The translations under genes and the position numbers were made by a program. Positions 48,501 through 60,500 of a stretch of 64,000 nucleotides of DNA are shown here, one piece after another. This DNA comes from Ptychodera flava (taxonomy: Eukaryota > Hemichordata > Enteropneusta > Ptychoderidae), in assembly GCF_041260155.1 (NCBI RefSeq), contig NW_027248277.1, forward strand, positions 6,197,910 to 6,261,909. Direction: 5' to 3'. A model generated the notes under the pieces. That model had not been told where the DNA came from and searched no databases. It was given only the letters and a program-made list of their open reading frames with translations. Each line of letters starts with the position of its first letter. The first letter of the stretch is position 1.

Positions 48501-51500
48501 TGCTGTTTCACTTCAAAATGTACTTAATTTCAAAATGTTTTTTGGAACACAGTGTTAAAATTGTGGAATTTTTAGCTTACATATGTTATTGCAGAATACC
48601 TAATCTTTCTTTCACAAGTTATTTCATGTGATTATGTGCATCGGAACAGAAACTGTGGTATTTTTACCAAAACTGTAACATCGTTATGTTTTTTGTGTTT
48701 TATGACCATAAGTACATATACCTTTAGTTTATATGTAGAAAAATGGGTAAAATATTGTAATATTGAATTTAATTCCAACCTCAACATCCATGGCAAGCAT
48801 TTTATACACCAAAATTAAATAAAGTTGCATATTGTATTGTTTTGTGAATAAATGAAAATGGAGATCGTTGTGGTCGGAATTCTTGTAGCGTCCGTGACAC
48901 ACTCATATCTTAAGGACAACAGGAGTTATAAAAGATCTGATGTCACAGGCCTAAGTGTCAATAGGTGCCTACCTTAAATAAACAAATTATATAATTACTG
49001 TCCCTTGCATTAACTATTAATATTCCTAAAATATGGAAATGTAGCATCCGTGACGGTGTAGCGTCCGTGACGGTGTTTACTACATTATTAATAATTAATA
49101 ACTATTTAAAACATTTTAAAGCAGTTAATCCACTGAAAATATAAATACTAGTGTGTATTGTGTGTACATACATGGAGTTGGGTTACAAAATGTCTTCAAG
49201 GCATAAAATTGTAAATTTGCACAAAATTGATTTTTTAAAAAGTAATAAAACACTCAAAAAGTTATGTTGAGCCTCAACTGTAACACTTAGATTGGTGTTT
49301 TTAAGAATGCAGTAATTATATTGAATATGTTATTAGAATTCTAGTGAAAAGAACAATGAATTCTGTGCTGTATATGCATTTATTATTGTGTATTCCATTT
49401 CAATTCATTATGTCACGGATGCTACAATAAAATGCAAACATTGTTTTTCAGATTATAAACTAATCTAAATGTGAAATAACCATCACATTTTATTGTTTTC
49501 TTATCACATTTTGAATTTTAAAAAATCAAGGGGGTAAGAAATGACATTTGTGTCAACTCTGTCTCCACCACTTTCACATATTATGAAGGCAGAGAGTACG
49601 AACGTAAAGTTGGCGTCATCCTCATCCTCATCCTCAGGTGACCTTTCTAGCTGACGCTAAAATGACGCTACTCAGCATCAGCTTCAGCGTCGTATCCAAA
49701 GATTGCGGAGGTTACGCTACCCGATGATGGATAAATGATAAAATTGCCCATATCTTAAGAAAATAACAACTCCATTCTTTCTCAACTTTCTTTTGAATTC
49801 TAAAACTGGTTCGCAGGTAATATTTTACCGTTAGAATATCTCATATGGACTAGTTTTTTGGAAATGTTCGTAATTTTCAGTCCATGGATCCGCGGATGTG
49901 TTTGTCGGTATCCTCTTAACTCTTGTGTTAAGATTTTCCAAAAATTGGTGCAAAAAAAGGTATACATGGTCCAAAATGTGTAAAAATCGCCACCATGAGA
50001 GGTGATGTGAAAGCCCTAATTATTCAAAGGACATATAAAACAATTAACTTGTATAAACGTTATGACTTGGGGCCTGAAAAGTCAATATATTAAACATAAA
50101 ACCTTTGAACTTTAAGGAAATTAAGGGCTAAGAATGTTGCCTTATAACTACAACGTGAGAAACGGATATTGAGAGGAGAGGTAACTAAATATTATGAAAT
50201 GCAAATCCCACATTTACAGTGATATGAAACTTGGAGCATATTTTTAAAGTCGTTTTTACACTTATCATTCCATCAGATGCATTCGGGAATAATCAGATCT
50301 GACGCCGGTGGAGCTGACACTGTAGCGTCATCCTCATCCTCATTTTCGCGTGACCTCTGAGGCTGAGGATGAGGATGAGTATGACGCCAACTTTATGCTC
50401 GTCAGAGAGTACAGATATATTATAGAACAGAGGTCAAAGGTTGGCAGACTACGTCTCTGATCTCCAGCCTCACCTAGGTGTGTGTGCGCGCCCCATCCTG
50501 ACAGGTGTTAGAACAGCTGCAAGCCATTTGGATTTCTGGGGTGGTGTGTCAAATACATTGTAGCAAATTTTATTGTGGGACCACAGGTCAAAGTTTAACA
50601 ACCTGTCTCTCTAGCCTGATCTAGGTGTCTAGTTTTATCTTGGTTTTACACTTAAAGGCGCAAGCATGTTAACTTCTGTGTTTTTTGACATATTGAAAGT
50701 TTATTACTGGTATAGACATTTTTCACATACTCCAACTGATTTTTGCAGTAGTTGCTATAGCTTTCTTGTTCAATTTAAAGAAATTGTCAATGTTTTGACA
50801 CAATTTTCACAATTTAAATGTTTGATAGAGAAAGGTTTTGGAGAAAAGAGAAAGAAAAAACCAGATTGTTGATTGCTTTTTATATTTCAAATTGACCTAA
50901 CTTTCAAGTTTGATTTTGGTAGCGTCCGTGACAAAATTACATGTCATACTAAACAGAAAATAATTTAGAAAGAAGTTCATTTTAATTACACTGAATGGTA
51001 TTAATATTGTTGCTATAGCATGGTTAATTCATGACAATAAAACTTTTAAATACAGCATACCAGCGGAAGGACATAGAGAAGTTGAAAGTCCTATTAAAAA
51101 ATATGATCAATATTGTTGTATTTCTCACTAAACTTGAGGTTGTGTTTATTCATGGAAAAATACCGTAATAACTCCATCAGTTCGACCGGGAAAAAATAAT
51201 TACGATTTATGAAAAGACGAACTGATGGGCTACAAAAAATAATATCAATACTCAGCCGGTCGAATGTCTAGAATATATTTTCGACGGTCACAACTTTCCA
51301 TAAGTTTACATGTAGAACTGTAGGCACCTTCAGCTGGTCGTGTAGGAGGCATGTATGATCAAATTTAACAGTTTGACCCGAGAAAGAATGAGTCTCTAAT
51401 ACCTTAGAAGCTCGGATCTGCAGCTTTGATCTTCAAAAATACAAAACGGCGACGGAAAAATTGATTCATATGCACAGCACGCCGCGACGACATGGACATG

Positions 51501-57500: not shown

Positions 57501-60500
57501 TTACAGAAATGGCTGAGATACCCCGCAAGGTGACCTTGAATGATATACTTACTCGATTACCGCCGTCTAGTCATAACATCTTCATGTACTGCAGCCCTCT
57601 TCGAACCAAACATTTTTTTATTTCTTTTTATTCTTTATTCATATTTAGAAAAGTCTTTATTAAACGTAAGCACATAATAAAAGACAGGTAAAGAAAAGAC
57701 AAGAAAACAGCGTGCACAAGTCCTCCACGTACTGCAACTATAGCAACCGGCGTAATTGGCAACAGTGTTGTCGCTGATATTGATTTATTTGCAACAATAT
57801 TATTTCGATTGTAGCAATATAAAGTTGACTTTGATAAAATGTATCCGTGCTGACACACTTGCGGTCGAATTACAGAGGAAAAACAAATTATGCGGTTTCT
57901 CATTGGTCGATTTACTGGAGGTCGTAAAATAATTAATTATCCTCCAAAAAGGGGGCGGTCGAACAATGGAGCAGTCGAACTAATGGAGTGATTACGGTAA
58001 GTAAATCATACTAAGTATAGCTTATTTTAATGCCAATATGCATCTTTTATATTGTAATAACATAAGAAAGCATTAACAAATCATTGTTTAAAATTTTATT
58101 ATGACATTTGTGTTTCATGTACAACATTTCTGTAGCGTCCGTGACACTGTGTCAACCATATAAAACAACGTGCACTGTGGTAAAACTAATGACGTTTGCT
58201 TCACCAAATTTTAGGAAGATATGCCCCATACCATAACCTTTCAACATATTATTTAACTGGACAGTTATCATGAACTTGAAATTTTGACCTAAGTGACACA
58301 CTCTAGCGCACCCTGATTGTGACTGACCCGATGAGTAAACACAGTACTCAACTGAAGGAGAGGTGATTATCAGAAATCAAAAAGAGACAACAACTACTTA
58401 CCACTTTTCAATGCCTCCAGAAGAAATGCCCGTGTTTCTGCAAATGAACCCTGTGAAATGGAAATCAAAGATTTCAGAAATGATGGACGTCATGTCTAGG
58501 GAAGAGGGGGTTGGGGTTGAAACCATGTACAGTGAAAGACTCTGTACTGAGGTTAGACAAGCTATCATCAAATACTGTTACTGTTGGAAGATGCAACATT
58601 ATCACATTGCCTCTGATCGTTTCTTTTCTGCATCATGTTGTCCAACACTATGCTACTGTCAACAAAAACATAAGTACCACCATACGTATACAGGTACCAT
58701 CCTACATGTAAGATGGTACCACTGTACTTGTATACCCTAACCACGTACTGTACATGTACGGTGGTACCACTGCACATGTACACCAACTGCCATACATGTA
58801 CAGTGGAACCATCACAGATGTACCGATACACCAGTACCACCATACACATGTACAGGTATCACTGCACATATACACCAGTACCTTCATACCAGTACATATA
58901 TACTGGCACCACTGCACATGTAGACCAGTACCACCATACCAGTACATACGTATATACTGGTACCACTGCAAACGCACACCAGTACAACCATACACATATA
59001 CTGGTACCACTGCACATGTACACCAGTACAATACACATATACTGGTACCACTGCACATGTACACCAGTACCACCATACACATATACTGGTACCACTGCAC
59101 ATGTACACCAGTACCACCATACACATATACTGGTACCACTGCACATGTACACCAGTACAACCATACACATATAACGGGTACCACTGCACATGTACACAAG
59201 TACCATTATACATATATACAGATACAGTACCATCATACATTGATGGTGGTAAAACAACACATGCAAAATGGTACCACCATACATGTACAGTAGTACCACC
59301 GCACATATACACCAGTACCACCATAAATATATGCTGGTACCATCACACATGTACGCAAGAACAACCATACATACAGAGCTTACAGGCAAGACTTGCCACT
59401 TCAATGCCTGGTATACTTTTTTTTACACACACTAAAGGTAATGGTGTGTGTGAACTTTAACCTGTTCACCCCCAATTCCCTGTATACAGGTCCACACTTA
59501 CCATTGATAACAATGGGTTTGGACCAAACCATGGTGGTGAAAGGGTTAATTAAGATGTGTGTGAGTAAATAGCCATCTGGTCGTAAAGACATTAATTTGC
59601 ACCCCAGACTGGTGATAGTAATCTGTCTCAAGGCTTACATGTCAGATATATTTCGGGTGTCCGTTTTCTGTTGTTTATTCTGTACAAACAATCCAGTCAT
59701 TAGGTTCCTTCCTGTTAATGATATGAAAACGTTTAGTGTGTGTAAAAAAACATGCATACCAGGCATCGAAGTGGCAAGGCTTGCCTGTAAGCCCTGTATA
59801 CACTGATACCACTGCACATGTAAAGTGGTACTACTATACATGTATACCCAACCTGATATATATGTACCGTATGGTGGCATCATTGTACATGTACCCGGTA
59901 AACCAATACCACCATACATGAATACCAGTACCACCATACATATATACTGTAACTGATACCACAGCACATGTACATTGGTACCACAAAACAAATATACCAG
60001 CAACTCTTTTTCAAAATGACCTCATCAACATAGATTAAATGTACCGGTACAGCATAGATATAATGTAACACTGTGAATATGTTGAAACTTTGAAATATTT
60101 TTCTGTACATTGTACACATTCAATACACCAAATGGAACATAAAGGCACATTCTACCTTAAAGTAGGGCAAAACAATTTGTACCAGTAATTTTTGTCTGTT
60201 ACCTACATTTGTGTATGGTAACATCAGAAATGCTATCACTTACAAAGACTTTATCTCCAAGAGTATTTTCCAGTTGTAGCTGTCTTGTAATTTCCTTGAG
60301 AGCAATCCTATCATCTGTCTGAAGTAAACCATTCAAGTTGACTTGTAATAAATTCTCCTTGGCTATTTTGTCTGATTTCACTTCATCCAGTACACTCTGT
60401 AACAGCTACAAGCAAATCAAATCCATATCATTCACTAGATTTCTGCAAGTGTACTCTTTACACCCCTACATTACATTATATGGACTGAACCATGATGTTA

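Follow-up and report, generated by a model that had tools for sequence, protein, structure and literature searches.

A pogo-type transposon in the acorn worm Ptychodera flava with histone-type 3' ends behind both of its genes

The genome of the hemichordate Ptychodera flava holds, in a stretch of 64,000 nucleotides (nt) of contig NW_027248277.1 (assembly GCF_041260155.1, forward strand, positions 6,197,910 to 6,261,909), a transposon of the pogo type in which a transposase gene and a gene for a HIRAN-domain protein are each followed by signals like those at the 3' end of replication-dependent histone mRNAs. This stretch is called the window below, and all positions are counted from its first letter. 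Histone-type 3' ends are regarded as a mark of replication-dependent histone genes. The explanation which we consider probable is that this is a pogo transposon with two genes, for transposase and HIRAN protein, and that the mRNAs of both are produced, at least partly, by the replication-dependent histone 3'-end machinery of the host. Read in this way, the sequence suggests that the element makes its proteins mainly during DNA replication.

Histone-type 3' ends

Both genes end in TAA, the transposase gene at 52347-52345 on the minus strand and the HIRAN gene at 56821-56823 on the plus strand. The signals behind the two stops are:

52267..52282, minus strand: histone-type stem-loop GGCCCTTTTCAGGGCC, 62 nt past the transposase stop (Rfam RF00032, 34.0 bits; fold z -3.31)
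52247..52255, minus strand: CAGAAAGAG, like a histone downstream element (HDE), its AAAGAG core 14 nt past the stem (from the sequence; AAAGAG is the HDE core in PMC7026596)
56857..56872, plus strand: histone-type stem-loop GGCCCTTTTCAGGGCC, 33 nt past the HIRAN stop (Rfam RF00032, 37.0 bits; fold z -3.71)
56884..56892, plus strand: HDE-like CAAAAAGAG, its AAAGAG core 14 nt past the stem (from the sequence)

A stem-loop followed by a purine-rich element behind each gene, at 62 and 33 nt from the stop, had been proposed in a sequence-only reading of this DNA, and the Rfam scan and a count from the two TAA codons bear out both the signals and the spacing. The Histone3 family (RF00032) was matched by cmscan at 52287-52243 on the minus strand with 34.0 bits (E 4.6e-06), which is just at the gathering score of 34, and at 56852-56897 on the plus strand with 37.0 bits (E 3.7e-07). 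A permissive scan of the whole window (E up to 5, 32 matches over all families) gave no further Histone3 match. At both sites there is a 6-bp stem, a 4-nt UUUC loop, the conserved flanks and AAAGAG within about 20 nt, and each stem-loop lies behind the stop of one gene and is sense-oriented with respect to it. The word GGCCCTTTTCAGGGCC is one of 12 used to locate stem-loops in human histone transcripts (PMC7807067), and the HDE of mouse H2a, which pairs with mouse U7, has AAAGAG as its purine core (PMC7026596).

That the two stem-loops arose by chance was rejected from the Rfam scores and from a pattern scan against shuffled sequences. A 22-base stem-loop pattern allowing up to 3 mismatches has exactly two sites in the window, both with 0 mismatches; 100 dinucleotide shuffles had 0.00 sites on average. 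Both 3' ends also fold better than their own shuffles, as the z values in the list show. Perfect 6-bp stems with 4-nt loops and at least five G-C pairs are found at four places in the window, two of them being the histone-type stems. As a control, a 20-base stem-loop pattern was searched in 257 Gb of prokaryotic contigs and gave 4 matches, all in records titled as bacterial metagenome-assembled genomes (MAGs), where about 4 are expected by chance as estimated from base counts; no histone or transposon was seen by eye in the open reading frames near two of the four (L003 and L001). The same pattern had 0 matches in viral contigs.

When the two 3' ends are aligned in register they are the same at 36 of 40 positions over stem-loop and downstream element, and at 16 of 20 in the spacer and element. 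The adjoining stretches agree at 4 of 36 positions upstream and 10 of 40 downstream, a level that dinucleotide-shuffled sequences reach as well (1000 per test; upstream p 0.25 over 36 nt, downstream p 0.11 over 40 nt and 0.27 over 80 nt). Because the agreement is confined to 40 nt, with chance level on either side, the shared block has about the size of a histone processing signal. That the 3' ends are copies of one longer duplicated stretch was rejected, since the flanks have no similarity above chance and only the 40-nt block is common. The block may go back to an old duplication whose flanks have decayed, or it may reflect constraint on two captures. Between the left and right arms of the element no inverted similarity was found beyond this block, the terminal repeats and low-complexity A/T tracts. 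Sequence, structure, spacing, orientation and the arrest of similarity at the block edges thus support histone-type 3' ends on both genes.

The element and its transposase

The element extends from 51163 to 57997 (6,835 bp) between TA dinucleotides, and its G+C content is 0.426 compared to 0.36 and 0.374 in the 6-kb flanks to the left and right. The parts of the element, apart from the 3' ends, are:

51161..51162: TA target-site duplication, left (from the sequence)
51163..51186, plus strand: left terminal inverted repeat (TIR), 24 bp, 22 of 24 bases the same as in the right TIR
52345..53364, minus strand: C-terminal piece of the transposase, with DDE_1 and its DD35D triad, HTH_Tnp_Tc5, and FEGF..DEL before the stop (Pfam PF03184, E 1.9e-31; PF03221, E 4.6e-08)
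53334..53873, minus strand: middle piece of the transposase in another frame, with KRPVGRPRK, a proline-rich linker and the first helix-turn-helix region (tblastn)
53882..53959, minus strand: likely N-terminal piece of the transposase in a third frame, starting MNRIDSYF, PIP-box-like (tblastn, one of eight queries)
53960..56388: inter-gene region of about 2.4 kb with the presumed promoters and a tandem duplication; the genes diverge from here
56389..56823, plus strand: HIRAN-domain protein, 144 amino acids, in an intact single open frame (Pfam profile match; HIRAN fold in the model)
57974..57997, minus strand: right TIR, 24 bp, pairing with the left TIR except at two differing positions
57998..57999: TA target-site duplication, right (from the sequence)

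The transposase gene lies on the minus strand and the divergent gene for the 144-residue HIRAN protein on the plus strand. The proposal of two divergent genes within one TA-flanked inverted-repeat element holds, given the 24-bp TIRs in TA and the Pfam matches. Judged by its transposase and its ends the element is a DNA transposon of the pogo superfamily: it has a DDE_1 transposase with a DDxD triad, a TA duplication and short TIRs. In the scheme of PMC7386202, the combination of DD35D spacing and HTH_Tnp_Tc5 corresponds to Passer or Tigger. Searches with the transposase, alone or aligned with relatives, in viral contigs and prokaryotic genome contigs, and with the TIR pattern in viral contigs, gave no second copy of the element.

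The transposase has 661 relatives among database proteins at E <= 0.001, and the best 120 of the 661 were used here; the best-scoring one has 58% identity over 97% of the query. One relative (P0006) is filed under a MAG of Candidatus Thiodiazotropha; as this is a bacterium of clams, the record probably stems from DNA of the host that entered the bacterial assembly. All 26 aligned sequences have the triad D91, D195, D231, and 35 residues separate D195 from D231. The C-terminus FEGF..DEL ahead of the TAA resembles the C-termini of the relatives, so the 62-nt gap is counted from an apparently natural stop.

The locus was compared by tblastn with 8 of the 120 listed relatives. All eight match in the C-terminal frame within 53367-52348, and seven of the eight in the middle frame within 53672-53334; the reach of the latter frame to 53873 is given by one 13-residue match with E 0.14. 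The third frame, 53959-53882, is matched by one of the eight (P0016; E 0.009, 38% over 26 residues). One frame break near 53364 is firmly indicated by these alignments. A second break upstream is likely, if weakly based because the third frame comes from one weak match. An assembly error is a possible source of the disruption.

In the left TIR the sequence CCATCAGTTCG (51174-51184) recurs inverted about 40 bp further inward (51218-51228), and this may be a second binding site for the transposase. The tandem duplication in the inter-gene region consists of 54562-55541 and 55559-56276, with pieces 92-100% alike, most of them 98-100%. The first copy only has an insertion of about 250 bp, whose 24-nt inverted ends are 88% complementary and which is probably a small non-autonomous transposon. 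A scan of 54111-56389 for histone-type promoter motifs gave one octamer, four ATTGG and two TATAAA, which is unremarkable at the window's own rates, and CCAAT was absent from this region.

The HIRAN protein

Membership of the HIRAN family is indicated by the Pfam profile match and by the HIRAN fold of the predicted structure. A HIRAN search of viral contigs gave 10 loci, of which 7 were aligned with the protein of the element and used for the fold model; NPHDRNAV was a search word, so its presence in all 10 viral loci is by construction. The HIRAN domain of HLTF binds DNA 3' ends. It binds model replication forks and recruits HLTF to stalled forks (PMC4666394).

Polyadenylation signals behind the stem-loops

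The sequence-only reading had the element working without a polyadenylation signal. This did not hold, as there is an AATAAA behind each stem-loop:

52233..52238, minus strand: AATAAA 28 nt past the stem on the transposase side, a possible poly(A) signal (from the sequence)
56941..56946, plus strand: AATAAA 68 nt past the stem on the HIRAN side, a possible poly(A) signal (from the sequence)

The presence of AATAAA behind both stems makes dual 3' ends possible, that is, the stem-loop site would be used in S phase and a form polyadenylated after AATAAA would be made otherwise, like human H2A.X. We put this sub-version of our explanation forward tentatively. The word occurs at 1.1 per kb per strand in the window, and from this rate its occurrence within 100 nt of both stems is estimated to be an event of about 1%. 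There is also precedent, as human H2A.X yields both stem-loop and poly(A) forms of its mRNA and other histone genes have cryptic downstream sites which come into play when U7 processing is deficient (PMC7807067). AATAAA is, however, easily found in AT-rich flanks, and the distances of the two signals from their stems differ.

Proposed mechanism and alternative explanations

The host is an animal, and SLBP and U7 are generally present in animals. According to the explanation proposed here SLBP would bind the stem-loop of both transcripts, the U7 small nuclear ribonucleoprotein would pair with AAAGAG, and the transcripts would be cut between the stem and the downstream element, giving mRNAs without a poly(A) tail. 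These tail-less mRNAs would be made and be stable in S phase, and their amount would follow DNA replication. The use of such processing and of its restriction to S phase might be that transposase and a fork-binding helper are supplied while new sister DNA is present. Outside S phase, the AATAAA signals may yield a polyadenylated form as well. It is reasonable to infer from the arrangement of the signals that production of the element's proteins is coupled to S phase, and coupling to replication fits with the PCNA contact of pogo and the fork-binding HIRAN domain of HLTF.

A number of observations weigh against this explanation. A single copy of the element has been examined, and its transposase gene is broken as assembled. 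A search of the protein database with the HIRAN protein gave 9 candidates and no relative with E <= 0.001, and hence nothing marks HIRAN as a regular part of such elements. AATAAA follows both stems. The two stem sequences are identical, so there are 0 compensatory changes to count. The distances between the blocks and the ends of the element, 1,084 and 1,105 bp, are near-equal, as they might be for sub-terminal repeats; this could have come about by chance, given that each block just stands behind its gene. As to the link with PCNA, the relevance of such PIP motifs is called unclear in PMC5371812, and none of the 15 best-scoring relatives of the transposase (P0001-P0015, several of them short) has a PIP-like motif.

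The element could be a relic in which one copy accidentally gained host histone 3' ends, or one such end that was later duplicated, so that they would be functionless and not a trait of a family. The one copy examined, the broken transposase and the lack of a close database relative of the HIRAN protein are what such a relic would look like, but the signal is found on both genes, stem-loop and downstream element are intact, and the similarity ends at the block edges instead of extending into captured flanks common to both sides. We consider this explanation quite improbable.

We think it very improbable that the blocks are sub-terminal inverted repeats, for example DNA binding sites for the transposase or a host factor, without a role in RNA. 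They are an inverted pair, 90% alike over 40 nt, at the distances from the ends given above. Each block is, however, a complete histone 3' end including the loop and the downstream element, which a DNA site would not need, and each is sense-oriented, 62 or 33 nt behind a stop. Furthermore, the blocks are about 1.1 kb inside the termini; the TIRs of pogo elements are at most 40 bp in most families, with a few of 392-856 bp (PMC7386202). The sequence-only reading regarded this alternative as weakened by the stop spacing and by a downstream element on the correct side of each stem-loop, and these two arguments stand; the near-equal distances to the ends, which it did not mention, speak the other way.

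A possible wider link to replication

The transposase of Drosophila pogo was found in a two-hybrid screen to be a PCNA binder with a PIP-box (PMC5371812). We looked at the N-termini of the 120 relatives with a full PIP-box pattern (Qxx[ILMV]xx[FY][FY] in the first 80 residues) and a relaxed one (the hydrophobic half in the first 60 residues), each with 500 shuffles. The full pattern was found in 5 of the 120 (shuffle mean 0.26, maximum 3) and the relaxed pattern in 15 (shuffle mean 3.3, maximum 10). The fraction may be an underestimate because several of the 120 are short. The N-termini of the first seven relatives begin with MDKF in five cases and start a few residues later in two. In the element itself the likely N-terminus of the transposase, MNRIDSYF, fits the hydrophobic half and lacks the Q, and thus has the relaxed form only.

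Moving from replicated into unreplicated DNA is the classical way for cut-and-paste elements to gain copies. One could go further and imagine a pogo lineage wholly tied to replication, in which histone-like mRNA ends would restrict the proteins to S phase, the transposase would sit on PCNA through an N-terminal PIP-like motif, the HIRAN helper would sit on the DNA 3' ends at the fork, and the element would multiply by transposing out of replicated into unreplicated DNA. We consider this scheme as a whole doubtful.

If the explanation is true, a selfish element has borrowed the switch of replication-dependent histones. This would offer an mRNA-level account of the way in which a cut-and-paste element might be active in step with replication, and the reason why the pogo transposase binds PCNA would become directly testable. 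Among the open-literature matches listed, judged by title and the start of the abstract and with subscription papers and Repbase outside, there is no transposon with a histone-type 3' end and no pogo element with a HIRAN gene. A term search of the accessible text of PMC7386202 and PMC7325037 did not find HIRAN or polyadenylation, and found histone only in the title of a reference.

Neighbourhood in the window

A minisatellite of 44-bp units in 8.6 copies lies at 58827-59219, about 0.8 kb to the right of the element. Further away on the plus strand, the open frames 17084-18178 and 22873-24111 both match the Pfam domain GT4-conflict (E 1.4e-16 and 1.3e-62, respectively). Their relatives are mostly from hemichordates and some have PF01335, a DED domain; this is an expanded family, perhaps linked to immunity. 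A neighbouring protein of 412 amino acids matches an uncharacterised P. flava protein with 100% identity over 98% of its length, and has 28 other relatives at E <= 1e-10, comprising P. flava paralogues and proteins of other hemichordates and including one lancelet protein. A long open frame of VHHGMSVTEDTETI-like repeats at 19708-20901 (plus strand) is open on both strands. At 2496-3274 (plus strand) two overlapping open frames may be a reverse-transcriptase remnant; the RVT_1 match is weak, in the first frame only, with E 0.0035, below the curated cut-off.

Comparison with known systems

The element shares with the pogo superfamily of the Passer/Tigger type the TA duplication, TIRs below 40 bp, DDE_1 with HTH_Tnp_Tc5 and the DD35D spacing. 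Published pogo elements are 1.20-5.20 kb long with one or two transposase open reading frames (PMC7386202), whereas this one is 6.8 kb and has in addition a HIRAN gene and histone-type 3' ends. Extra open reading frames as such are known in transposons, for example in the Tec elements of ciliates (PMC7325037).

The protein of the element resembles the HIRAN domain of HLTF in its Pfam match and predicted fold, and in the alignment N91, P92 and D94 of HLTF are kept (numbering of PMC4666394). In this alignment S stands opposite HLTF N90, and H opposite both of its pocket tyrosines, Y72 and Y93. Unlike in HLTF, the HIRAN domain stands alone, without a helicase or RING.

With the 3' end of replication-dependent histone mRNAs (RF00032) the element has in common the stem, the loop, the flanks and an AAAGAG element past the stop; in contrast to these, its 3' ends are on transposase and HIRAN genes and have AATAAA close behind. 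In this respect it is like the dual 3' end of H2A.X, where stem-loop and HDE are likewise followed by a poly(A) signal (PMC7807067), but H2A.X is a cellular histone gene and not a mobile element.

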